Made by a program: the position numbers and the translations under genes. Shown here one piece after another: positions 2,188 to 24,241 of a stretch of 46,559 nucleotides of DNA (position 1 is its first letter; each line of letters begins with the position of its first letter). Source of the DNA: Chloroflexota bacterium (GTDB lineage: Bacteria; Chloroflexota; Anaerolineae; Anaerolineales; UBA11858); contig JABGRQ010000104.1 of assembly GCA_018648225.1 (NCBI GenBank), forward strand, positions 1 through 46,559, read 5' to 3'. Below the pieces are notes generated by a model. The model had not been told where the DNA came from, ran no database searches, and worked only from the letters and a program-made list of their open reading frames with translations.

Positions 2188-3348
2188 CTACCCGCAATAC
2201 GCCAGCGCCGCGTCGGCCAGCACATAGGCCAGATCAATCGTGGATTGAATATCCACCCATTCTTCGGCGCTGTGCAAGCCATAGCCGATTGGCCCTAGCA
2301 GCACCGTTTCCATTCCGGCATCGGCAAACAAGGCTGCGTCTGTCCAGAAGGTTTGCCCGCTATGGGCCGATGATTTCCCCAGGCGGGATTCCAGCACCCG
2401 GTCGAGAATCTGCACAATGGCGGCATCCGGGGCGACCACGAAGGGGGCGCGCTCGAAAGTAGGCCTGATCGTCGCCCGGAAAGTTTCATCTTGCGCGGCC
2501 AGTTTGTCGATGATGGTCTGCAATTCAGCGGTGGCCTGCTCAACCGTTTCTCCGGGGGCGGTACGACGTTCGAGTTGCAGCAAACAACTCGCCGCGTAGA
2601 TACTGACCTCCTTGCCCCCTTGCAGCCGCGCCGCATGGAGCGAGGGCGGCCCGGTTAGGGCGTGTCCCTCTCGTTTGAGCAAATCCTGTTCCAGCTTGTC
2701 CAACTCCCCCAGAAAACGCCCCATGCGCATATTGGCATCGATTCCCTCGGCGTAGCGGCTGCCATGCGCGGCGCGGCCAATCGTCTCGACATCGTACCAG
2801 ATGAACCCGCGGTGCGCCCGGCAGACGTGCATATCGGTGGGCTCGGTGACAATGGCGGCATCGGCCTGCACTTGTTGAACAAGCGCCTCGGTGCCAATGC
2901 TGGCGTATTCTTCGTCGGCCACAGCAGTGATGATCAGATCGCCCGCCAGCGATATTCCAGCATCCACAAAGGCTTTGGCGACTGCCAGCATGGCGGCCAG
3001 ACTGGCTTTCATATCTTGTGAACCGCGCCCGTAAAGCCGCCCTTCACGAATTTCTGCACCGAAGGGATCCATCGTCATGCCCTCCACACCGACGGTATCC
3101 ATGTGGGCATTGAGCAGTAGCGAACGTCCTTGCCCGCGGCCTTTGAGAATGCCGACTACATTCACGCGCCCCGGCTCAATTTCGTGCAATGTGGTTTCCA
3201 GTCCCAATTTTTTTAGAGCATCGGCGACATACGCGCCCAGTTCGGCTTCGCCCTGGCCCTCCGGTGTCAGCGAGGGGTTAACCGAGTTGATTCGCACCAG
3301 GTCTTTCAGTGTTTCGATCAGATACGTTTCATCAAGCGTAATTTTCAT
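2188..3348 (-). CDS. M20 family metallopeptidase (ArgE/DapE-like deacylase)
   Basis: This is a 386-residue cytoplasmic zinc hydrolase of the M20 family, which removes acyl groups or N-terminal residues from small substrates. The di-zinc ligands are all visible: H82 and D84 in NAHMDTV, D112 in GRGSQDMKAS, the catalytic E146 and ligand E147 in ADEEYAS, E169 in VTEPTD, and H359 in GYGLHSAEEW. The dimerisation lid lies between about 180 and 290. Length matches acetylornithine deacetylase and succinyl-diaminopimelate desuccinylase, but the motifs do not separate these from peptidases, so no symbol is given. The start is supported by AAGGAG eight bases upstream and a TATAAT at 3376-3371. No arg or dap genes adjoin it, so a scavenging peptidase is equally likely. 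Confidence 0.9.
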   Translation of the reverse strand: MKITLDETYLIETLKDLVRINSVNPSLTPEGQGEAELGAYVADALKKLGLETTLHEIEPGRVNVVGILKGRGQGRSLLLNAHMDTVGVEGMTMDPFGAEIREGRLYGRGSQDMKASLAAMLAVAKAFVDAGISLAGDLIITAVADEEYASIGTEALVQQVQADAAIVTEPTDMHVCRAHRGFIWYDVETIGRAAHGSRYAEGIDANMRMGRFLGELDKLEQDLLKREGHALTGPPSLHAARLQGGKEVSIYAASCLLQLERRTAPGETVEQATAELQTIIDKLAAQDETFRATIRPTFERAPFVVAPDAAIVQILDRVLESRLGKSSAHSGQTFWTDAALFADAGMETVLLGPIGYGLHSAEEWVDIQSTIDLAYVLADAALAYCG

Positions 3349-3476
3349 AGATACTCCTTGGCTCCGAGGTATTATACGCTGTCAACCGTCGGACGTCAGG
3401 ATGTCTGACGCCAAAAATAGAGTATCATATAGCACTAAACTTTCTGTCTTCAACTTTCAACCTATAACGTGCAAAT
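3349..3476. promoter_or_regulatory. Divergent promoter region between M20 peptidase and phosphatase
   Basis: For the reverse gene there is TATAAT (3376-3371) with CTGACG (3399-3394) 17 bases upstream. For the forward gene TATAAC (3463-3468) sits eight bases before the ATG at 3477, a near-leaderless layout. Between them a short inverted repeat, CGTCAG-GATGT-CTGACG (about 3394-3410), overlaps the reverse -35 and could be an operator. A heptamer-like TTCAACTTTCAACC tract precedes the forward -10. Confidence 0.5.
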
Positions 3477-4097
3477 ATGCCAACTATTTTACTGATTCGC
3501 CACGCTGAAAATGAATACGTCAAGAAGGGCCGCCTGGCCGGACGCCTCCCGGGTGTGCAGCTTAATAAGAAGGGGCGGCAACAAGCCCAGGCATTGGCCG
3601 AGACCCTCAAGGATGCGCCGATTAAAGCCATCTACGTCAGCCCGCTGGAGCGCACGCTGGAGACTGCCGCGCCTATCGCGGCCGCCCTCAACCTAGACGT
3701 GATCCCAAATTCGGGTTTGCTGGAAATTGACTTTGGCGACTGGCAAGATAAAACGCTCAAGGAATTGCGCCGTCGAAAATTATGGCGTACCGTTCAGCAA
3801 GCCCCCTCACGCATGTGTTTCCCCGGCGGGGAGAGTTTTGCCGCCGCGCAGGCGCGAATTATAACTGCCCTCGAAGCGCTCTGTCAGAAACATAGCCCCA
3901 AAGAAATGCTTATTTGCGTTTCGCACAGCGACAGCATCAAACTGGCCGTAGCCTACTACCTGGGGATGCATATTGACCACTTCCAACGGCTAATGATTGC
4001 GCCTGCGTCGATCACAACCCTGTTTCTTGGCGAAGGGCAGACGCGGGTTATTAATGTGAATATGGATGCAGGCCACAAGTTGCAGGCTGAACATTAA
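3477..4097 (+). CDS. Histidine phosphatase family protein (MSMEG_4193-like)
   Basis: The 206-residue protein belongs to the histidine phosphatase (phosphoglycerate mutase-like) superfamily. It has the phosphohistidine motif LLIRHAEN with catalytic H9 (Ala in place of the usual Gly after it), the arginine/glutamate segment SPLERTLETA, and the second histidine in CVSHSDSIKLAVAYYLGM. The run DSIKLAVAYYLGMHIDHFQRL and the gene order point to the 'probable phosphomutase, MSMEG_4193' subfamily (TIGR03848 as I recall it). It is followed by DUF3090 and SCO1664-type genes on the same strand, the order expected for this conserved trio. The substrate is unknown. The ATG at 3477 has a -10 box eight bases away and no clear Shine-Dalgarno. 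Confidence 0.9.
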   Translation: MPTILLIRHAENEYVKKGRLAGRLPGVQLNKKGRQQAQALAETLKDAPIKAIYVSPLERTLETAAPIAAALNLDVIPNSGLLEIDFGDWQDKTLKELRRRKLWRTVQQAPSRMCFPGGESFAAAQARIITALEALCQKHSPKEMLICVSHSDSIKLAVAYYLGMHIDHFQRLMIAPASITTLFLGEGQTRVINVNMDAGHKLQAEH

Positions 4098-4129
4098 CGT
4101 AAACGTGTAACCTTCAACCCGCAAAATGG

Positions 4130-4135
4130 TATACT
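4130..4135 (+). promoter_or_regulatory. Possible -10 element before the DUF3090 gene
   Basis: TATACT occurs in the 72-base gap between the phosphatase and DUF3090 genes, 34 bases before the ATG at 4170. No good -35 is seen. It could give the last two genes of the cassette their own transcript; read-through from upstream is also possible. Confidence 0.3.
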
Positions 4136-4169
4136 TCTCAAACAAATTATTAACCCATCGGAATAAATC

Positions 4170-4751
4170 ATGCCAAACCAAGAATTTGATCTTAACCCCG
4201 TTGACCATATCACCGTAGACGCGCTTGGAGCCGCCGGACAGCGCGTTTTTTATATTCAGGCTCAAAAAGGCGCTCAAACGATCACGCTGATCGCCGAAAA
4301 ATTCCAGTTACAATCGCTCGCCATTGGTATCGAGCGCTTTTTGGCCGAAATCGCCGAGAAATTCCCTGATCTACCTGCTCCCGTAGCCGAGTTTTCTGAA
4401 ACCCAGATGCACATTCACCCGCCGGTTGACCCGCTCTGCCGCATTGCCAATATCGGGCTGGGATTTGACATTGAAGCCGATCTGGCTGTACTGGTCATCC
4501 ACGAATTGCTGCCCGAAGGCGATATCATGGAGGAAATCGAGGATGCGATCCAATCCAATGACGATACCATCGAAGGGGATGTACCCAACGTGGTGCGTCT
4601 CTGGTGCAGCCGCGATCAACTGCTGGCGCTCAGCCGCTGGAGCATCGAAGTTGCATCCCGTGGTCGGCCCATTTGCCCCCAATGCAACGAACCAATGGAG
4701 CCTGAAGGCCACTTCTGCGTCAAGAAAAACGGCGGACACGCGCGCAAATGA
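4170..4751 (+). CDS. DUF3090 family protein with C-terminal zinc ribbon
   Basis: The 193-residue protein matches what I know of DUF3090 (TIGR03847): an N-terminal domain opening NPVDHITVDALGAAGQRVFY and continuing GAQTITLIAEKFQLQSLA, and a C-terminal ribbon ICPQCNEPMEPEGHFC whose C169, C172, H181 and C183 could bind zinc. The middle part contains a conserved run around 100-130 (RIANIGLGFDIEADLAVLVI). No enzymatic motif is visible and the function is not known. The gene sits between the histidine phosphatase (72 bases upstream) and the kinase-like SCO1664 gene (36 bases downstream). The context suggests a structural or substrate-presenting partner for a phosphorylation/dephosphorylation pair; this is inference. 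Confidence 0.88.
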   Translation: MPNQEFDLNPVDHITVDALGAAGQRVFYIQAQKGAQTITLIAEKFQLQSLAIGIERFLAEIAEKFPDLPAPVAEFSETQMHIHPPVDPLCRIANIGLGFDIEADLAVLVIHELLPEGDIMEEIEDAIQSNDDTIEGDVPNVVRLWCSRDQLLALSRWSIEVASRGRPICPQCNEPMEPEGHFCVKKNGGHARK

Positions 4752-4787
4752 ATGCATGGCGAATAGCAAATCGCCATCCGTCTTCCC

Positions 4788-5504
4788 ATGCACGAGCCAA
4801 TTCTCACCGCGCTAAACTCTGGCACGTTCTCCCTCGAGGGGGAATTCATCCACGGGGCAAATTACTCCTTTCTCGTCCAGATTCAGCACCAGGGCGAAAT
4901 CACGCGCGCGGTCTACAAACCCGAGCAAGGCGAACGCCCGTTGTGGGATTTCCCCGACAATACCCTGGCGCACCGCGAAACCGCCGCTTATCTCGTCAGC
5001 CAGAGCCTCGGCTGGGAGTTAGTACCCCCCACGGTTTATCGCAGCGATGGCCCCTACGGCCCCGGCTCACTGCAATATTTCGTTCCTCACGACCCCAATT
5101 ATCACTATTTCAATCTCAGCGAAGCGCATTTTCAGTGCATGCCGCCCGTGATTCTCTTTGATCTGCTGGTCAACAATGCCGACCGTAAAGGCAGTCACCT
5201 GGTCTTTGATGCCGACGACCATCTCTGGCTGATCGACCACGGCCTCTGTTTTCATGTGGAGGACAAACTGCGCACCGTAATCTGGGATTTTGCCGGAGAG
5301 CCGGTGCCGCCTGAATTTTTGGTCGATTTACAAACCCTGAACGGGAACCTCGCGCTTGGCTCCGAGTTGGTTGCCGCACTCGCAGCGCATCTCGCCCCCG
5401 AAGAGATCGCCGCCCTGCACGCCCGCGCCGAAAGATTGCAAACTTTAGAGAATTTCCCGCATCCGCCCAACGACCGGAGAGCGTATCCATACCCGCCGTT
5501 ATAA
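4788..5504 (+). CDS. SCO1664 family protein, PI3K/HipA-like kinase fold candidate
   Basis: The 238-residue protein has the hallmarks of the SCO1664 family (TIGR03843 as I recall): VYKPEQGERPLWDFP (42-56) with a candidate ATP-binding lysine K44, AHRETAAYLVSQSLGWELVP (61-80), a catalytic-loop-like NNADRKGSHLVF (129-140) and a DFG-like IDHGLCFH (149-156). This order of lysine, N-x-D-R-K-x-x-H loop and D-H-G motif is that of phosphatidylinositol-kinase/HipA-like folds, so the protein probably binds a nucleotide and a metal. The target is unknown. It is the third gene of the cassette; the ATG at 4788 is the first plausible start after DUF3090. The gene ends directly before a palindromic repeat at 5506. 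Confidence 0.87.
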   Translation: MHEPILTALNSGTFSLEGEFIHGANYSFLVQIQHQGEITRAVYKPEQGERPLWDFPDNTLAHRETAAYLVSQSLGWELVPPTVYRSDGPYGPGSLQYFVPHDPNYHYFNLSEAHFQCMPPVILFDLLVNNADRKGSHLVFDADDHLWLIDHGLCFHVEDKLRTVIWDFAGEPVPPEFLVDLQTLNGNLALGSELVAALAAHLAPEEIAALHARAERLQTLENFPHPPNDRRAYPYPPL

Positions 5505-5505
5505 C

Positions 5506-5573
5506 CCCTCACCCACCCTCCGCTACGCTTCGGATTTCCCTCTCCCTTAGGGAGAGGGGCCAGGGGTGAGGGA
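5506..5573. repeat. Dispersed nested palindrome (CCCTCACCC/CCCTCTCCC family)
   Basis: Outer arms CCCCTCACCC (5506-5515) and GGGGTGAGGG (5564-5573) enclose an inner perfect hairpin CCCTCTCCC-TTA-GGGAGAGGG (5539-5559). The same nested design recurs at 32724-32795. It lies immediately before the ribosome-binding site of hom, so a folded copy in the mRNA could affect hom translation or stop transcription from the upstream cassette. Confidence 0.75.
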
Positions 5574-5586
5574 AATAGGAGAACCA

Positions 5587-6612
5587 ATGCCTCATTATAA
5601 TCTCGCCTTCCTCGGTTTTGGCAACGTCGGCAAAGCCTTAGCCGAATTATTGCTGCGTAAAGCCGCCGATATTGTAGCCCAGCGCGGCGTAACCTTCAGC
5701 GTAACCGGCATTGCCACCGGCAGCCGCGGCATCGCCATTGACCCCAACGGCATTGACCTTGCCAAAGCCCTCGAACTCGTCAAAAGCGGTCAATCTATCA
5801 ACGAACTCAACCTTCAACCTTCAACCTTCAATTCACAAACTTTCATCGAAAACTGCGGCGCCGATGTACTCTTTGAAACCATCCCCGTGAACTACGAAAG
5901 CGGCCAGCCCGCCATTGACTATATCCGCGCTGCCCTCGAACTAGGCATGCACGTTACCACTGCCAACAAAGGCCCGGTGGTGCATGGCTATCACGAACTA
6001 ACCGCTCTCGCTAAATCCAAAGGGCGCAAATTCTATTTCGAATCTGCCGTGATGGATGGCGCGCCGGTCTTTGGTCTGTTCCGCGAGACGCTACCCGCCG
6101 CCAATCTCAACGCCCTGCGCGGCGTGCTCAACTCGACGACCAATCTTCTGCTCACGCGCATGGAAGCTGGCGAGAGTTTCGAAGATGCCGTGGCCTACGC
6201 CCAATCGATTGGCATTGCTGAAACCGACCCCAGCGGCGATGTCGATGGCTGGGATGCGGCGATCAAAGTTTGTGCGCTGGTATCGGTGATGATGGGTGTG
6301 CCGCTCAAACCGCACGATGTAGACCGCACGGGCATCGGCGGTATCTCGGTTGACGATGTGGCGCAGGCCAAATCCGAGGGCAAACGCTGGAAACTGGTCT
6401 GCGAAGCGCTTCGGGATGGGGATCAGGTGCGGGCACGCGTGGCACCCCAAAAGGTCGGTGTCGAATCGCCCCTCTATGGGGTCATGGGCACCACCTCCAT
6501 CGTCGAGTTTGAATCCGATGTGCTGGGCAAACTCTCGCTCATCGAGGCCGATCCCGGCCCCCACACCACGGCTTACGGTCTGCTGGCCGATTTCCTCAAC
6601 GCCGTCGCCTGA
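5587..6612 (+). CDS. hom: Homoserine dehydrogenase
   Basis: The enzyme reduces aspartate semialdehyde to homoserine on the way to threonine and methionine. From the ATG at 5587 (AGGAGA ten bases upstream) it has 341 residues: a Rossmann start with GFGNVG (10-15), the TTANKGP segment with K128, the catalytic domain beginning YFESAVMDGAP (150-160), GVLNSTTNLLLT (179-190), and AETDPSGDVDGWDAAIK (211-227), which carries the acidic residues and lysine of the active site. It has no ACT domain, so it is the short, feedback-insensitive type. The frame also opens seven codons earlier inside the repeat; that start is rejected. A TCAACCT heptanucleotide tandem repeat (5807-5830) encodes residues near 74-82 between two Rossmann elements. 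No thrB or thrC is adjacent. Confidence 0.93.
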   Translation: MPHYNLAFLGFGNVGKALAELLLRKAADIVAQRGVTFSVTGIATGSRGIAIDPNGIDLAKALELVKSGQSINELNLQPSTFNSQTFIENCGADVLFETIPVNYESGQPAIDYIRAALELGMHVTTANKGPVVHGYHELTALAKSKGRKFYFESAVMDGAPVFGLFRETLPAANLNALRGVLNSTTNLLLTRMEAGESFEDAVAYAQSIGIAETDPSGDVDGWDAAIKVCALVSVMMGVPLKPHDVDRTGIGGISVDDVAQAKSEGKRWKLVCEALRDGDQVRARVAPQKVGVESPLYGVMGTTSIVEFESDVLGKLSLIEADPGPHTTAYGLLADFLNAVA

Positions 6613-6627
6613 ACGACACAAATCCCC

Positions 6628-7914
6628 ATGACTGATTTAACGCCTGCTTTGCTGCCCGCTATTGAAAAACATCGCCTGCCCGGTTTGGATTTGGACGCTG
6701 ATTTTATTTACCCCAAATATGATGGGGATTCGATCCTCAACATTCCCAGTTCGATCTGCCGCTGGCTGAACGTGCCCGGCCTGGGGGCTGGCGCGCTGCG
6801 CCCGGAGATTTTACAACCCCCGGGGGAGGGTATCCGCAAAGTACTCCTGATCCTCATGGATGCGCTGGCCCTGCATCGTTTTCAACGCTGGCTGGATGAA
6901 AACCGCAACCCGGTGTGGAATACTTTGCTGCAAAGCGGCAACCTGGCCCCGCTGACCTCGATCAGCCCCAGCACAACTTGCGCGGCGACAACCTCGTTAT
7001 GGACGGGTGCTAGCGCGGCCGAGCATGGGATCGCAGGCTACGAACTCTGGCTCAAGGAATACGGCATGGTCGCCAATATGATCTTGCACACCCCGATGGC
7101 TTTCCGCCGCGGGGTAGGTGAACTTGCCAAAGCCGGATTCAACGCATCGGAATACCTGCCGATGACCACGCTGGGCGAACATCTCAGCACGCACGGCGTA
7201 CAGCCGTATGCTTTTTTGCATCACAGTATTGCCCACTCCGGGCTTTCGACGATGCAAATGCGCGCTGTTGAAGTAGCGCCCTTCAGCACGCCGGTTGATT
7301 TGTGGGTGACGATGCGAGAATTATTTGAAGAAAAAGCCCGGCAACGCCTGTATACCTGGGCTTATTGGGGTGTGGTGGATGGTTTTTCGCATCAGTACCA
7401 ACCCGAAGACGAGCGCGTTTCTGCTGAATTTACACAGTTTAGCGAGGCTTTTGAGCGTCATTTTCTTAATCAACTTAGCGCCGCGGCGCGGCAAGATACG
7501 CTGGTGCTGCTGACTGCCGATCACGGGCAGATTCGCACCTTCGATCAGGGCCGTTATCACCTCAAGAACCACCCCGAACTGGATGCTATGCTGCATATCC
7601 GTCCAACGGGTGAAAACCGGCTAATCTATCTCTATGCCAAACCCGGGCAAAAAGAGGCCATCCGGCAATATTTCGAAGCGGCCTGGCCGGACGAGTTCGC
7701 TGTTTTCACCCCGGAGCAGGCTTTGGCCGCCGGTTTATTCGGCCCGGGGCTGGAGCACCCGCTTTTGCGCGACCGTCTGGGCGACCTGATTGTAATCCCG
7801 CGCGACAACGCCTACTTGTGGTGGGCAGACAAGCCCAATCCGCTGATTGGGCGACATGGCGGTCTGCACCGTGAGGAGATGTTGGTGCCATTTTTGGCAG
7901 CCCGATTAGGGTAA
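6628..7914 (+). CDS. Alkaline phosphatase superfamily phosphodiesterase/pyrophosphatase
   Basis: The 428-residue protein has the metal-binding layout of the type I phosphodiesterase/nucleotide pyrophosphatase branch: D78 in LLILMDAL, a candidate nucleophile T116/T117 in SISPSTTCAATTSLWTG, D251 and H255 in WGVVDGFSHQY, D298 and H299 in LLTADHGQ, and a late histidine in GRHGGLHREEMLVPF (about 408-422). There is no signal peptide, so it is cytoplasmic. The substrate cannot be deduced. It follows hom by 15 bases, so the two are probably co-transcribed, without an obvious metabolic link. Confidence 0.88.
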   Translation: MTDLTPALLPAIEKHRLPGLDLDADFIYPKYDGDSILNIPSSICRWLNVPGLGAGALRPEILQPPGEGIRKVLLILMDALALHRFQRWLDENRNPVWNTLLQSGNLAPLTSISPSTTCAATTSLWTGASAAEHGIAGYELWLKEYGMVANMILHTPMAFRRGVGELAKAGFNASEYLPMTTLGEHLSTHGVQPYAFLHHSIAHSGLSTMQMRAVEVAPFSTPVDLWVTMRELFEEKARQRLYTWAYWGVVDGFSHQYQPEDERVSAEFTQFSEAFERHFLNQLSAAARQDTLVLLTADHGQIRTFDQGRYHLKNHPELDAMLHIRPTGENRLIYLYAKPGQKEAIRQYFEAAWPDEFAVFTPEQALAAGLFGPGLEHPLLRDRLGDLIVIPRDNAYLWWADKPNPLIGRHGGLHREEMLVPFLAARLG

Positions 7915-18133: not shown

Positions 18134-18225
18134 GAAAGGAGGATTACAATTCAGTATATTTTCCCTTATATTCCATCCACCCAAGTTTCTATTTCGCTTG
18201 AACCCCTTCTAAGGAGGAAGATTTC

Positions 18226-19908
18226 ATGAAAAGTAAGACCCTATATATTGTACTGGCTTTGCTCCTGGTCGCCAGCGTTGTTTTAGCGGCATGCCAGCCC
18301 AAGGCTGAAGACGTTGCCGTTGTTGAGCGTGCCTATGAGGAAATTGCCTATGGCGAACCCCTCTCGGTGGCCGCACCTGATTGTGAATATGGCGGAAAGA
18401 TCGCCTCGATTGCAGCGGTTGATGAACTCACCGTTGAATTCACCATGTGTAAACCCGATCCGGCGTTCCCCACCAAAGCCGCCTTCACGCCCTTTGGCAT
18501 TTATCCGCAGGAATGGTTGAACACCTACGCCAATGCCGAAGGTCAGGAAACCCTGCTTTCCCACCCCGTTGGTACCGGCCCCTTCTATCTGGATACCTGG
18601 GCACGTGGCGACAGCATTACCTTCAAGAAATTTGACGGTTACTGGGGCGAAAAGTCTGCCTATGATACCTTGGTCTTCCGCTGGGCAACTGAAGGCGCGG
18701 CCCGCTTGCTCGAACTGCAATCTGGAACCGTGGATCAGATCACCAATCTTAGCCCCGATGACTACGCGACTGTACAAGAGGATGCAAATCTGACCTTCTT
18801 GCCGGTTACCAACCCCAATGTCCTGTATCTGGCAATGACCAATACCTTTGAGCCGTTTAACGACGTCAAGGTTCGTCAGGCAATTGCTATGGGCATTGAC
18901 CGCCAGCGCATCGTAGACAACTTCTACGCCGAAGGTTCCGTCGTTCCCTCGCACTTCACCCCCTGCAGCCTGCCTAATGGTTGTGTTGGTGATGCCTGGT
19001 ACGATTTCGATGCCGCAGCCGCCAAGGCTCTGTTGGCCGAAGCTGGTTATCCCGATGGCTTCGCAACCACCATCTACTATCGCGATGTTTTCCGCGGCTA
19101 CCTGCCCGAACCCGGATTGGTTGCTGTTGAATTCCAGACCCAGTTGCGCGACAACCTGGGCATCGAAGCTGATGTTGTTGTGATGGAATCGGGCGAGTTC
19201 ATCGACGAATCCACCAATGGCCGCCTGGATGGCCTTTACCTGCTCGGCTGGGGTGCTGACTATCCTCACGTGACCAACTTCCTGGACTTCCACTTTGCGG
19301 CCTCTAACCCGCAGTTTGGCGATCCGCATCCCGAAGTCTACGAAGTGCTTGAAAAAGCTTCCCAGATTGGTGACCCGGCTGAAGCCGAGGCTCTCTATGT
19401 TGAAGCCAATAATGCGATCCGCGAACTCGTTCCGATGGTTCCGATTGCCAACGGCGCTTCTGCATCTGCAGCTCTGAACACGCTTGAGAACGCCCACTTC
19501 CGCCCCTTCGGCGCTCCGCTGATGGCGAAAGTAAATCCGGGCAAAGACACCTTCGTCTTCATGCAGAATGCTGAACCGATCAGCTTGTTCTGCCAGGATG
19601 AGACCGATGGCGAATCACTAGCTCCTTGCCAGCAAGTTGTGGAAACCCTCTTGGGCTACGCAATTGACTCTGGTAATGTTGTGCCTGAATTGGCCACCGG
19701 CTGCACAGCCAATGCAGACTCCACTGTGTGGACCTGCACCCTGCGCGAAGGCGTTACGTTCCACGATGGCACCAAGCTGGACGCCAACGATGTAGTCGCC
19801 TCCTGGGCTGCTGGTATTGACGCGGCGAATGCCAATCATATTGGTAACACCGGTGCGTTTGAATACTACTCATACCTGTTTGACGGCTTGATGAACATCG
19901 AAGAGTAA
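18226..19908 (+). CDS. Peptide ABC transporter substrate-binding lipoprotein, apparently circularly permuted
   Basis: The 560-residue SBP_bac_5-type lipoprotein has lipobox LAAC (C23). Family landmarks are present but in rotated order. After the signal it starts in what is normally mid-domain (IAAVDELTVEFTMCKPDPAF, 62-81), continues through PVGTGPFYLDTW (114-125), ELQSGTVD and VRQAIAMGIDRQRIV (216-230), reaches the usual last strands near 425-435, then adds about 120 residues that match the normal N-terminus: TFVFMQNAEPISL (442-454), VVPELATG and WTCTLREGVTFHDGTKLDANDVV (502-524). The full domain is thus present once, rotated. A strong AAGGAGG precedes the ATG. Four importer genes follow. I believe similar proteins exist in other Anaerolineae, but could not check. 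Ligand unknown; oligopeptide likely. Confidence 0.88.
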   Translation: MKSKTLYIVLALLLVASVVLAACQPKAEDVAVVERAYEEIAYGEPLSVAAPDCEYGGKIASIAAVDELTVEFTMCKPDPAFPTKAAFTPFGIYPQEWLNTYANAEGQETLLSHPVGTGPFYLDTWARGDSITFKKFDGYWGEKSAYDTLVFRWATEGAARLLELQSGTVDQITNLSPDDYATVQEDANLTFLPVTNPNVLYLAMTNTFEPFNDVKVRQAIAMGIDRQRIVDNFYAEGSVVPSHFTPCSLPNGCVGDAWYDFDAAAAKALLAEAGYPDGFATTIYYRDVFRGYLPEPGLVAVEFQTQLRDNLGIEADVVVMESGEFIDESTNGRLDGLYLLGWGADYPHVTNFLDFHFAASNPQFGDPHPEVYEVLEKASQIGDPAEAEALYVEANNAIRELVPMVPIANGASASAALNTLENAHFRPFGAPLMAKVNPGKDTFVFMQNAEPISLFCQDETDGESLAPCQQVVETLLGYAIDSGNVVPELATGCTANADSTVWTCTLREGVTFHDGTKLDANDVVASWAAGIDAANANHIGNTGAFEYYSYLFDGLMNIEE

Positions 19909-19947
19909 AATCTTCGTTGCCATCTAGCTCGATCTAACTAACTCAAT

Positions 19948-19989
19948 GCGGGATGGTACAATGGCCTTTCGAGGCATATACCATCCCGT
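19948..19989 (+). other. Intergenic hairpin between binding protein and permease genes
   Basis: GCGGGATGGTA (19948-19958) pairs with TACCATCCCGT (19979-19989), and the loop contains a smaller ATGGCCT-TTCG-AGGCAT stem. No T-run follows, so it is more likely an RNA-stabilising or partial-termination structure that keeps the binding protein more abundant than the permeases. Confidence 0.65.
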
Positions 19990-20042
19990 ATTGTCCTTAA
20001 AAACTCAATCCGTGCCCCATACACTACTCGACGACAAAGCCT

Positions 20043-21122
20043 ATGATTCAGTACACAATTCGACGCCTCTTGTTAGCAATACCAGTAATATTTGGTATTC
20101 TCCTGGTCACTTTTGTCCTGGCGCGCTCGATTCCCGGCGACCCCTGTAAAGCGATGCTGGGAGAAAAAGCCTCGGCAGAAGTCTGCGAACGCTTTACCCG
20201 CGAACGTGGTCTGGACAAGCCTATTCCGGTGCAATTCGTGATTTATATGAAAGAAATTGCACAAGGTGATTTTGGCAAATCCATTCGCTTTAGTCGCCCT
20301 GTGATGCAAATTCTGATCGAGCGGTTACCAACAACGATCGAACTAGGCTTGATTGCACTTATCATCGCCATTGTTGTGGGCATCCCGATGGGGGTCATCT
20401 CTGCGGTACGCAGAAACTCTGTCATTGATGTCACTACGATGATCATCGCCAATACTGGGGTTTCTATGCCGGTTTATTGGCTGGGGCTGATGCTGGCGTA
20501 TGCCTTCGCGCTGCTGCTGAGGGGTACTCCTTTTTGGCTGCCTCCATCAGGGCGGCTTTCATCCGGTCTGGCATCCATTCCTTTTTTTGAAGCATTTGGC
20601 TGGAATTTGACACAAGGCACATTTGGCTATCAGTTTGCGGATTTCTTCTCGAATATGCTCATATTCAACTCACTCATCACTGGCGACTGGGTAATTCTGG
20701 GGGATGCGGTAAAACACCTGATTCTGCCTTCAATTGCATTGAGCACGATTTCGCTATCCATTATTGCCCGTATGACGCGCTCGAGTATGCTGGAAGTACT
20801 GCGGCAGGACTATATCCGCACGGCGCGCGCAAAAGGGCTTACCGAGCGCCTGGTGATCTTGCGGCATGGTTTTCGAAATGCGCTGCTGCCCATCGTCACA
20901 ATCATTGGTTTGCAGGTTGGCACCCTTTTCGCCGGTGCCGTATTGACCGAATCGATCTTTAGCCTGGCGGGCGTGGGACGTATGCTCTTCGAAGCGATTA
21001 CGGCGCGCGATTTTCCCATCGTCCAGGCTTTTACGGTGGTGATTGCCGTTGGGTATGTTCTCGTAAACCTGTTGGTAGACCTGTCATACGTATTTATCGA
21101 TCCGCGCATCAAGCTGGAGTAA
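20043..21122 (+). CDS. Peptide-type ABC transporter permease (DppB/OppB-like)
   Basis: The 359-residue inner-membrane protein starts with the typical MIQYTIRRLLLAIPVIFGIL helix and RSIPGDPC loop. It has a periplasmic segment with RERGLDKPIPVQFVIYM, several further helices and the EAA loop DYIRTARAKGLTERLVILRHG that docks with the ATPase. It ends with YVLVNLLVDLSYVFIDPRIK, the standard C-terminus. It is about 20-40 residues longer than DppB because of a loop near 155-220 (GRLSSGLASIPFFEAFGWNL). It follows the binding protein across a hairpin-bearing gap of 134 bases and precedes the partner permease by 16 bases. Confidence 0.93.
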   Translation: MIQYTIRRLLLAIPVIFGILLVTFVLARSIPGDPCKAMLGEKASAEVCERFTRERGLDKPIPVQFVIYMKEIAQGDFGKSIRFSRPVMQILIERLPTTIELGLIALIIAIVVGIPMGVISAVRRNSVIDVTTMIIANTGVSMPVYWLGLMLAYAFALLLRGTPFWLPPSGRLSSGLASIPFFEAFGWNLTQGTFGYQFADFFSNMLIFNSLITGDWVILGDAVKHLILPSIALSTISLSIIARMTRSSMLEVLRQDYIRTARAKGLTERLVILRHGFRNALLPIVTIIGLQVGTLFAGAVLTESIFSLAGVGRMLFEAITARDFPIVQAFTVVIAVGYVLVNLLVDLSYVFIDPRIKLE

Positions 21123-21138
21123 GGAAGAAGCAATTATC

Positions 21139-22074
21139 ATGGCCGTAAAAACTGAAACAACTTCAAACGATGCTCAGAACGATTATCGTTCAAACAGCCT
21201 GGCTCGCCTAACTTTGCGACGCATCTTTCGGCAGCGCTCCGCAATTATTGGCGGCACGATCCTACTATTGCTGGTTTTGGTGACCATCTTTGCCCCCATT
21301 CTGGCGCCCTACGATCCCGAAGAAGTCCTCATCGGCAAGGAAGATATTACCCGGCGCTCTGCGCCCTGTATCCATTTATTGGGTTGTCCCGAAGACCAGC
21401 CCCAACATATTTTGGGGACAGACGGCAATGTGCGCGATGTTTTTAGCCGAGTTATTTTTGGGACGCGCGTCTCTTTGTTCATTGGCTTTTCAACCGTCGG
21501 CTTCGCCATCATCATCGGCACATTTTTGGGATCGATTGGTGGCTATATGGGGGGATGGGTTGACAACCTGATTATGCGCTTCATGGATGTGCTCTTGGCC
21601 TTCCCTTCGCTATTATTAGCGATCGCCATTGTCTCAGTGTTGGGACGCGGTCTACAGAACGCACTTTTGGCGATTGCGATTGTCACCATCCCCGTGTACG
21701 CGCGCGTGGTGCGTGGCAGCGTGCTCTCGGTAAAAGAACAGCCTTATGTCGATGCCTCCCGTGCGCTGGGTGGCAGCCATTTCCACATTCTTTTCAAACG
21801 GATATTGCCTAACGCAATCCCCCCGTTGATCGTTCAGGGCACCCTGGGGATCGCTACTGCCATCCTCGATGCGGCTGCGCTTTCTTTCCTGGGGCTAGGC
21901 GCGCAACCGCCCACGCCTGAGTGGGGCACAATGCTCGGCTCGGAACGCAATCAGGTGTTCACCGCCCCGCATCTGGTATTCTTCCCTGGGCTGGCAATTA
22001 TGATTACTGTGCTGGCTTTCAACTTGTTGGGCGATGGGCTGCGCGATGCCATTGATCCGCGCTTAAAGCAATAA
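21139..22074 (+). CDS. Peptide-type ABC transporter permease (DppC/OppC-like)
   Basis: The 311-residue partner permease has the N-terminal cytoplasmic stretch RLTLRRIFRQRSAIIGGTIL of OppC-N and the periplasmic HILGTDGNVRDVFSRVIFGT, close to the family's LGTDxxGRDxxSRxxxGxR. Further helices lead to the EAA loop QPYVDASRALGGSHFHILFK. The end GDGLRDAIDPRLKQ is typical of the family. A cysteine-containing insertion (SAPCIHLLGCPEDQ, about 72-85) precedes the conserved loop. It is in an operon with the DppB-like gene. Confidence 0.93.
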   Translation: MAVKTETTSNDAQNDYRSNSLARLTLRRIFRQRSAIIGGTILLLLVLVTIFAPILAPYDPEEVLIGKEDITRRSAPCIHLLGCPEDQPQHILGTDGNVRDVFSRVIFGTRVSLFIGFSTVGFAIIIGTFLGSIGGYMGGWVDNLIMRFMDVLLAFPSLLLAIAIVSVLGRGLQNALLAIAIVTIPVYARVVRGSVLSVKEQPYVDASRALGGSHFHILFKRILPNAIPPLIVQGTLGIATAILDAAALSFLGLGAQPPTPEWGTMLGSERNQVFTAPHLVFFPGLAIMITVLAFNLLGDGLRDAIDPRLKQ

Positions 22075-22194: not shown

Positions 22195-23241
22195 ATGCCT
22201 GAAAACAACTCTCAACCTTTACTAGAAGTCAAAAACCTGAAAACCTACTTCTTCACCGAAGATGGCGTGGTACAAGCCGTGGATGGTGTCGATTTCGAGA
22301 TCAAACCCGGTGAAATCCTCGGGCTGGTCGGCGAATCGGGTTGTGGCAAAAGCGTTACTTCTTTCTCTATTCTGCGCCTGGTGGATGATCCGGGGCGCAT
22401 CGTGGAAGGCGAAGTATTCTTTGAAGGGCGCAATCTGTTGGAACTGAGCCAGGATGAGATGGTGGATATGCGCGGCAATCGCATCTCAATGATTTTCCAA
22501 CAGCCGCACACCAGCCTCAACCCGGTGCATCCGGTTGGCAAACAAATTGCCGAGGTTTTCCACATTCATGACAAGCAAATTTCAAAAGAAGCTGCCTGGG
22601 AAAACGCGGTGGAGTTGCTGGGGCTGGTGGGGATTGCCGATCCTGAGAGCAAAGCGAAAGCTTATCCACATGAAATGTCGGGCGGGCAAGCGCAGCGCGT
22701 GATGATTGCGATGGCGCTGGCGCTGAAACCAAAGCTGCTCATCGCCGACGAACCCACCACGGCGCTGGATGTCACCATCCAGGCGCAGATTCTGGATTTG
22801 ATGCTCGATCTTCGGAACAAAATGGATACCTCGGTCATTTTGATCACCCACGATCTGGGTCTGATCGCCGAAATGGCTGACCGCGTGGCTGTGATGTACG
22901 CCGGTCGGATTGTCGAGCAAAGCGATGTCTATACACTTTTCAAGGAACCGGTTCATCCCTACACACAGGGGTTGATCGCTTCTGTCCCGGTGTTGAGACA
23001 GGTTAAAGATGAACTGGCTGTAATCCCGGGGTCGGTACCCAACCTGATCGATTTGCCCCAGGTTTGCCGTTTTGCCGCCCGTTGCGAGGCCAGCATTGAG
23101 TACAATCTGAAGATTTGTGAGCAGGCCGAACCGGATTTGGTTGAAATACGCCCTGGGCACACCGTGCGCTGCTGGTTGTATCAAGATCACGAAGACCATC
23201 AGGCTCCGCTGAAAAATACGTTGAACGGCAAGAGTAAGTGA
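22195..23241 (+). CDS. Peptide-type ABC transporter ATP-binding protein (DppD/OppD-like)
   Basis: The 348-residue ATPase has Walker [15 protein letters not shown]-loop [15 protein letters not shown], signature [12 protein letters not shown], Walker [13 protein letters not shown] and switch histidine ILITHDLG. The C-terminal oligopeptide-ABC domain carries [19 protein letters not shown], whose three cysteines resemble the iron-sulfur or structural cysteine motif of OppD/DppD. It forms a heterodimer with the next ATPase, four bases downstream. The ATG has no strong ribosome-binding site. Confidence 0.95.
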
Positions 23242-23245
23242 CATT

Positions 23246-24241
23246 ATGACAGCATTTACAGAGACGAACAAAAATACCAACAACGATTTGGTACAGGTCA
23301 AAAATTTGGTAAAATATTACCCCGTGCGCGGTGGCGTTTTTCGCCGCGTGGTCGCCTGGGTTAAGGCCGTGGACAATATCAGTTTCACGATTAAAAAAGG
23401 CGAAACGCTGGGCCTGGTTGGCGAATCGGGCTGCGGAAAAACTACCGCCGGGCATACCCTGTTGCAACTTGTCCCGCATACCAGCGGTTCCGTGACCTTT
23501 GGTGACGTAGATGTCTTTCAACTGAAAGGCACTGCGCTCAAAGAAATGCGCCGCAAAATGCAGATCGTTTTTCAAGACCCCTACGCTTCGCTGGACCCGC
23601 GCCTGCCGATTGGCGAATCGGTGGGGGAGGGTTTGAAAATTCATGGTATTGGCAACGCCAATGCACGCGTCAATCAGGTCATGGCTATGCTGAAGCGCGT
23701 CGGGCTGGAAGATTATCATGCTAACCGTTACCCGCATGAATTTTCGGGTGGGCAACGACAGCGCATCGGGATCGCCCGCGCCCTCACCTTGCAACCTGAA
23801 TTCATCGTCCTCGATGAACCGGTTTCGGCGCTGGATGTTTCCATTCAGGCGCAGGTACTCAATTTGCTCAAAGAACTACAAAACGAATTTGGGCTGACCT
23901 ATCTCTTTGTGGCGCATAATCTCGCTGTGGTTGAGCATATCTCCGACCGGGTGGCGGTGATGTATCTGGGCAAAATTGCCGAAATGGCGCCCCGCGACGA
24001 TCTGTTTGGCAAACCGCTGCACCCCTATACCAAAGCCCTGATGTCAGCCATCCCGATTCCCGATCCGGAGATCAAGCGCGAGCGCATCATCCTCGAGGGC
24101 GATGTTCCCAGTCCGCTGAATCCCCCCTCGGGCTGCCGTTTCCATCCGCGCTGCCCCATTGCACAGACCAACTGCGCAGTAGACGAACCTGAGTTGCTCG
24201 AATTACATCCAGAACATTTAGTGGCCTGTCACTACGTATAG
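23246..24241 (+). CDS. Peptide-type ABC transporter ATP-binding protein (DppF/OppF-like)
   Basis: The 331-residue second ATPase starts with the family's [20 protein letters not shown]. It shows Walker [16 protein letters not shown]-loop [17 protein letters not shown], signature [12 protein letters not shown], Walker [12 protein letters not shown], switch histidine LFVAHNL and the C-terminal [15 protein letters not shown] cysteine motif. It is the last gene of the importer operon and is followed at once by a strong terminator. Confidence 0.95.

Follow-up and report, generated by a model that had tools for sequence, protein, structure and literature searches.

The DNA analysed in our study (the window) is a stretch of 46,559 nucleotides from a Chloroflexota bacterium. 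The plus strand was found to contain a gene for a circularly permuted binding protein of the SBP_bac_5 family, followed by four genes resembling those of the Dpp peptide importer (Table 1). A Shine-Dalgarno sequence, aaggagg, was read directly at 18211-18217, ahead of the binding-protein gene. The open reading frame, its coordinates and the two landmark blocks quoted in a preliminary description of the locus were correct as given. The blocks of a canonical protein are named here in the order B-A1-A2 (in short, B-A), and the order in the 18226-19908 protein is A1-A2-B (A-B). An inverted repeat, gggatggta...taccatccc, was present at 19909-20042, between the binding-protein gene and dppB, and is perhaps an attenuator or a processing site. 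Two cysteines in the scoop region of the DppB-like permease (PGDPC...VC), also found in the DppB of locus L135, may form a disulfide in the segment inserted into the cleft of the binding protein.

Table 1. Features of the binding-protein locus and positions of the second permutant in related genomes.
Feature	Position	Strand	Basis
Circularly permuted SBP_bac_5 lipoprotein gene, 560 aa	18226..19908	+	ORF list, Pfam, rotation, AlphaFold2
Signal peptide, lipobox LAAC at its end (Cys23)	18226..18294	+	read from sequence
Linker, residues 24-45; model confidence low at 24-31	18295..18360	+	predicted model
Block A1, residues 46-210; from about DppA residue 124 onward; new N-terminus of the fold; predicted disulfide Cys53-Cys75	18361..18855	+	
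Block A2, residues 211-435; C-lobe and canonical C-terminus; carries R290 and D345	18856..19530	+	
Block B, residues 436-560; canonical N-terminal part, now C-terminal	19531..19905	+	
DppB-like permease; E41-K42 at the scoop-loop position	20043..21122	+	
DppC-like permease	21139..22074	+	
DppD-like ATPase	22195..23241	+	sequence motifs; homologues in related loci
DppF-like ATPase	23246..24241	+	sequence motifs; homologues in related loci
A2-B-A1 permutant, genome G109	L135:1164-2927		
A2-B-A1 permutant, genome G085	L136:1866-3602		

Order of the blocks and predicted fold

The nearest protein of solved structure, as found by phmmer, was E. coli DppA, and the two matches were swapped; residues 59-409 corresponded to DppA 124-477 and residues 473-549 to DppA 34-116. 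SBP_bac_5 was the only Pfam family matched. The unrotated protein scored 261.8 bits, above the cut-off of 32.4 and sufficient for family membership; the match fell into two stretches, the best of which placed residues 56-361 on profile positions 62-365. The last 125 amino acids alone matched profile positions 1-55 (E 5e-15). When the sequence was rotated in silico, a single contiguous stretch covered positions 1-365 of the 368 in the profile, with 270.9 bits. The rotation was scanned in steps of 5 residues by global alignment to three canonical proteins; the best cut was found at residues 426-441, and the scores rose from 319.5 to 492, from 152 to 347 and from 267.5 to 562.5, respectively. As judged from these alignments, the gain of 170 to 295 score units over the unrotated order is far beyond chance. 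The linear canonical order, in which the start of the N-lobe comes first, was not found, and the match became contiguous only once residues 436-560 were put in front. Because the order is rotated, the protein was classed as a permuted variant and not as an ordinary SBP_bac_5 protein.

The rotated order of landmarks proposed in the preliminary description was therefore borne out by the swapped DppA matches and by the single Pfam match after rotation. The moved block does lie at the C-terminus, with limits of about 436-560 instead of the proposed 440-560, and A does precede B, although the mature protein opens with the short linker and not, as proposed, directly in the middle of the domain. The statement that every part occurs once, without truncation, also held. 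All blocks were present, and codon comparison with four relatives gave dN/dS values of 0.07-0.09 for A and 0.03-0.08 for B, so that both blocks are under purifying selection. A truncated gene or a pseudogene was ruled out by the presence of all blocks together with these values (0.03-0.09 overall).

The AlphaFold2 model, made from an alignment of 45 family members, had a mean pLDDT of 93 and a pTM of 0.87, and residues 441-560 had pLDDT values of 89-98 in ten-residue blocks. Residues 32-440 of the model aligned to GbpA, HbpA2 and DppA with Z scores of 28-29 (maximum 29.5) over about 390 residues. The structure aligners follow chain order only, and the moved block B was excluded from this superposition by design. 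Block B could be judged solely through the model of a second permutant, described below, in which B precedes A1 again (pLDDT 85, pTM 0.80); its residues 304-577 were superposed on DppA 1-264 with a Z score of 27.4 at 1.8 Å. The structural check suggested in the preliminary description was thus passed for the SBP_bac_5 fold and for residues 32-440, whereas block B is supported only through the homologous block of the second permutant.

A natural circular permutant has each block once, in rotated order, with the old ends joined, and has canonical homologues; all of this was satisfied, only a few residues linking the former C-terminus to the former N-terminus. Since the blocks occur once each, become contiguous after rotation, give a confident single-chain model and keep their order in more than 100 genomes, it is supported that the product is a complete, DppA-type, cluster C SBP_bac_5 protein that is truly circularly permuted. 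Such proteins give two partial SBP_bac_5 profile matches in an odd order, and permutants are therefore easily taken for fragments.

Likely peptide capture and anchoring

The importer genes expected downstream were found, and the dppBCDF set of a DppA-type operon is complete at this locus; transport itself is inferred. In most loci with a permuted gene, dppB and dppC were also downstream, and dppD and dppF were found in many of the loci whose DNA extends far enough. R290 and D345 were aligned by phmmer with R383 and D436 of DppA (precursor numbering), which contact the carboxyl and amino groups of the dipeptide, respectively (PMC12136057). Both residues were at least 90% conserved. Because these contact residues are conserved, the capture of dipeptides or short peptides for a Dpp importer appears to be the likeliest function, an inference from sequence without binding or transport data. 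E. coli DppA (PDB 1dpe, 1dpp; cluster C) is homologous over both blocks, has the same predicted fold and shares the peptide-terminus contacts and the DppBCDF partners with the permuted protein (PMC12136057). It differs from the permuted protein, in which the blocks are rotated, the new termini lie in the loop at about DppA 117-123 and four clade-specific disulfides are predicted.

The permuted protein would fold into the usual two-lobed flytrap, bind the peptide termini with R290 and D345, and dock on DppBC in the manner of DppA, with the tether on the side where the N-terminus is now located. Alternatively, it could chiefly be a receptor for sensing or scavenging rather than the delivery subunit of a transporter; some relatives are fused to other binding-protein families or to a caspase-FHA protein, and dppBC is not directly downstream at some loci, but this is unlikely, as the unfused form at 18226-19908 and most relatives precede dppB and dppC. 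We consider it very probable that the protein arose when an ordinary SBP_bac_5 protein was circularly permuted, and that it is the working binding protein of a Dpp-type ABC importer, with binding and transport inferred. Our results suggest that a binding protein anchored from a different side can still be accommodated by a peptide importer, and that evolution can re-cut a protein, apparently without loss of working.

Most permuted proteins had eight cysteines (53, 75, 247, 253, 456, 468, 493 and 504), each of which occurred in no more than one of 24 canonical proteins. The pairs 247/253 and 493/504 were always lost jointly, and 456/468 and 53/75 nearly always. The eight cysteines are predicted to form four disulfides, of which Cys53-Cys75, located at the new N-terminus, may pin this end down. 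The placing of the lipid anchor on a different part of the fold, as preliminarily described, holds for the 18226-19908 gene and not in general. The signal peptides of the two alphaproteobacterial members examined, from Devosia (L044) and Pseudooceanicola (L051), have no lipobox; the permutation therefore does not entail lipid anchoring in general. About one-fifth of the permuted proteins examined carry another domain at this place.

Inferred origin of the rotated order and a second permutation

In genus g76, a single open reading frame was found to encode a signal peptide, a linker and the blocks A2, B and A1 (Table 1). The gene was followed by dppBCD, and in L135 by dppF too. In genome G129, from the same family as g76, the order is A1-A2-B (L173:7424-9205, minus strand). 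Its protein is 65% identical to the second permutant over A2-B and 66% over A1 and has a comparable signal and linker; the DNA is also similar on either side of the gene, and the two loci are syntenic. The second permutant was nested inside the A1-A2-B clade in the tree (SH-aLRT 96-100 at the nearest branches). In an alignment anchored on the B-A1 segments, its B-A1 junction, FLEVPPATATDTKYEAPNCDYGG, exceeded canonical junctions by about 18 residues and resembled the C-terminal tail plus the N-terminal leader of the first permutant. Since the junction appears to hold the earlier termini and the sequence is nested in the tree, a path from canonical (B-A1-A2) through A1-A2-B to A2-B-A1 is indicated, from two draft assemblies of one genus.

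The first rotation is inferred to have arisen by an in-frame tandem duplication, giving B-A-B-A, followed by the loss of the outer halves, and a signal peptide with a lipobox would have been placed ahead of A. This route remains an inference, and it is supported because the second permutant keeps a fossil junction. Tandem intermediates with repeated blocks (B-A-B or A-B-A) were not found among the open reading frames of the relatives examined. The genome carrying the 18226-19908 gene also contained canonical SBP_bac_5 paralogues. The protein might have been formed by fusion of parts of two different paralogues, with A from one SBP_bac_5 gene and the N-terminal part from another. One related genome (L126) has canonical and permuted SBP_bac_5 fusions side by side on one strand, and the authors of the study on TpMglB-2 raise the same option for their own protein (PMC4990184). 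We regard such a fusion as quite improbable, because A and B join into a single contiguous match whose ends lie close together, selection on B is equally strong, and the nested second permutant shows that true rotation occurs in the family. Tandem duplicates are, however, paralogues themselves, and there is no sharp line between the two routes.

All permuted sequences formed one clade once long branches were removed (SH-aLRT 86). The fuller trees preferred two to three changes, and a single clade was not rejected (AU p = 0.43). In the full tree, the divergent permuted L126_87 paired with the canonical L141_73, and more than one origin is therefore possible; the trees fall short of proving that all permuted sequences arose once.

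TpMglB-2 (Tp0684) of Treponema pallidum, for which "Cluster Bc" was proposed, is also a natural circular permutant, lipidated and with the start of the N-lobe at the C-terminus; it has retained ligand binding, accompanied by a conformational change, and its authors connect the permutation to tethering (PMC4990184). It belongs to cluster B (sugar, Type I), whereas the protein studied here belongs to cluster C and had no Pfam match beyond SBP_bac_5 that would point to homology with cluster B or MglB. In the open-access literature, we found no permuted cluster C or SBP_bac_5 protein and no successive permutation, and TpMglB-2 was the sole precedent. The surprising part beyond this precedent is the large clade and the nested second event. 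As the permuted clade has canonical sisters and a nested permutant with a fossil junction, the direction and route of permutation become testable on real sequences, and the family allows tests linking chain topology, anchoring and domain fusion.

Distribution and fusions at the new N-terminus

A scan of genome contigs gave more than 50 relatives that were colinear over most or all of the protein, with 53-99% identity. They belonged to Chloroflexota or to records with other labels, including Alphaproteobacteria and Actinomycetota; the taxon labels of some metagenome records may be wrong. The rotated order was present in the named alphaproteobacterial strain Pseudooceanicola endophyticus CBS1P-1 (L051), on a Devosia chromosome assembled from a metagenome, and in the single-contig genomes G010, G027 and G228. 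A strong match (E < 1e-60) was found in 127 of 298 sampled genomes of the class, which verified the earlier guess that other Anaerolineae have the same arrangement. Among close relatives, 26 of 41 genomes had a strong match. The phylum sample gave a match in 44 of 251 genomes (1e-50), where the weaker matches inspected were canonical. The plasmid collection gave no match at E 1e-60. Among the relatives examined that had all three blocks, 116 proteins were A1-A2-B and 21 canonical; the latter were mostly fetched on purpose. Short relatives or those lacking A1 (L149, L152, L153 and L154-L156) were rejected as further variants, being contig ends, masked stretches or apparent frameshifts.

An artefact of assembly or gene calling, with two adjacent genes merged (the refutation foreseen in the preliminary description) or the start codon misplaced, is practically excluded in spite of the fragmented source assembly (226 contigs), because the same order is conserved in more than 100 proteins from many independent assemblies, some of them single-contig, at 29-99% identity, with a signal peptide or fused exported domain ahead of A and a stop right after B in the relatives, and because the Shine-Dalgarno sequence and the lipobox fit the start codon used.

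About 25 of the 116 permuted proteins contained extra N-terminal domains; in these relatives, the new N-terminus is also the site at which other exported domains are fused. The partners were SBP_bac_3, one or two Peripla_BP_6, Peripla_BP_6 with SBP_bac_3, a haem-binding-like domain with SBP_bac_3, and caspase with FHA. GlnPQ likewise has several binding domains per chain, two of which are attached to the transporter's membrane domain; the fused relatives differ in combining domains of different SBP families, and the abstract on GlnPQ mentions no permutation (PMC8025302). The SBP_bac_3 domains of a canonical-order fusion (L137) and a permuted-order fusion of the same genus (L104) shared 88% identity, and the SBP_bac_5 blocks of L137 were merely 28-40% identical to those of the 18226-19908 protein. 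These identities suggest that canonical and permuted SBP_bac_5 forms were exchanged behind one SBP_bac_3 partner, as a putative module swap.

We are slightly inclined to see here a widespread clade of cluster C permutants, probably of single origin. In it, permutation would have opened an N-terminal fusion point, allowing the module to be placed by recombination behind a variety of exported domains as multi-ligand receptors, and renewed permutation at one locus (B-A1-A2, then A1-A2-B, then A2-B-A1) would have formed a natural series of successive permutations.

Several fusions were observed individually. Peripla_BP_6, SBP_bac_3 and SBP_bac_5 were mixed in one exported chain, with up to three kinds per chain, in L117:6266-10276, L121:4122-7541, L122:4613-7405, L118, L119 and L108. 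Across one genus, the SBP_bac_3 domains of L137 and L138, which precede a canonical SBP_bac_5, had 85-88% identity to that of L104, which precedes a permuted one. L126 contained SBP_bac_3 with a canonical SBP_bac_5 at 2354-4780 and, adjacent on the same strand, SBP_bac_3 with a permuted SBP_bac_5 at 5133-7652. The protein at L120:1409-4666 (1086 aa) contained caspase-like peptidase, HEAT-like and FHA domains, together with a likely membrane segment (read by eye), before the permuted SBP_bac_5, and no dppBC lay directly downstream. An open frame of 1852 aa at L141:3-5558 (minus strand) contained a canonical SBP_bac_5 in the middle, preceded by a long, repetitive-looking N-terminal region and followed by a long C-terminal region.
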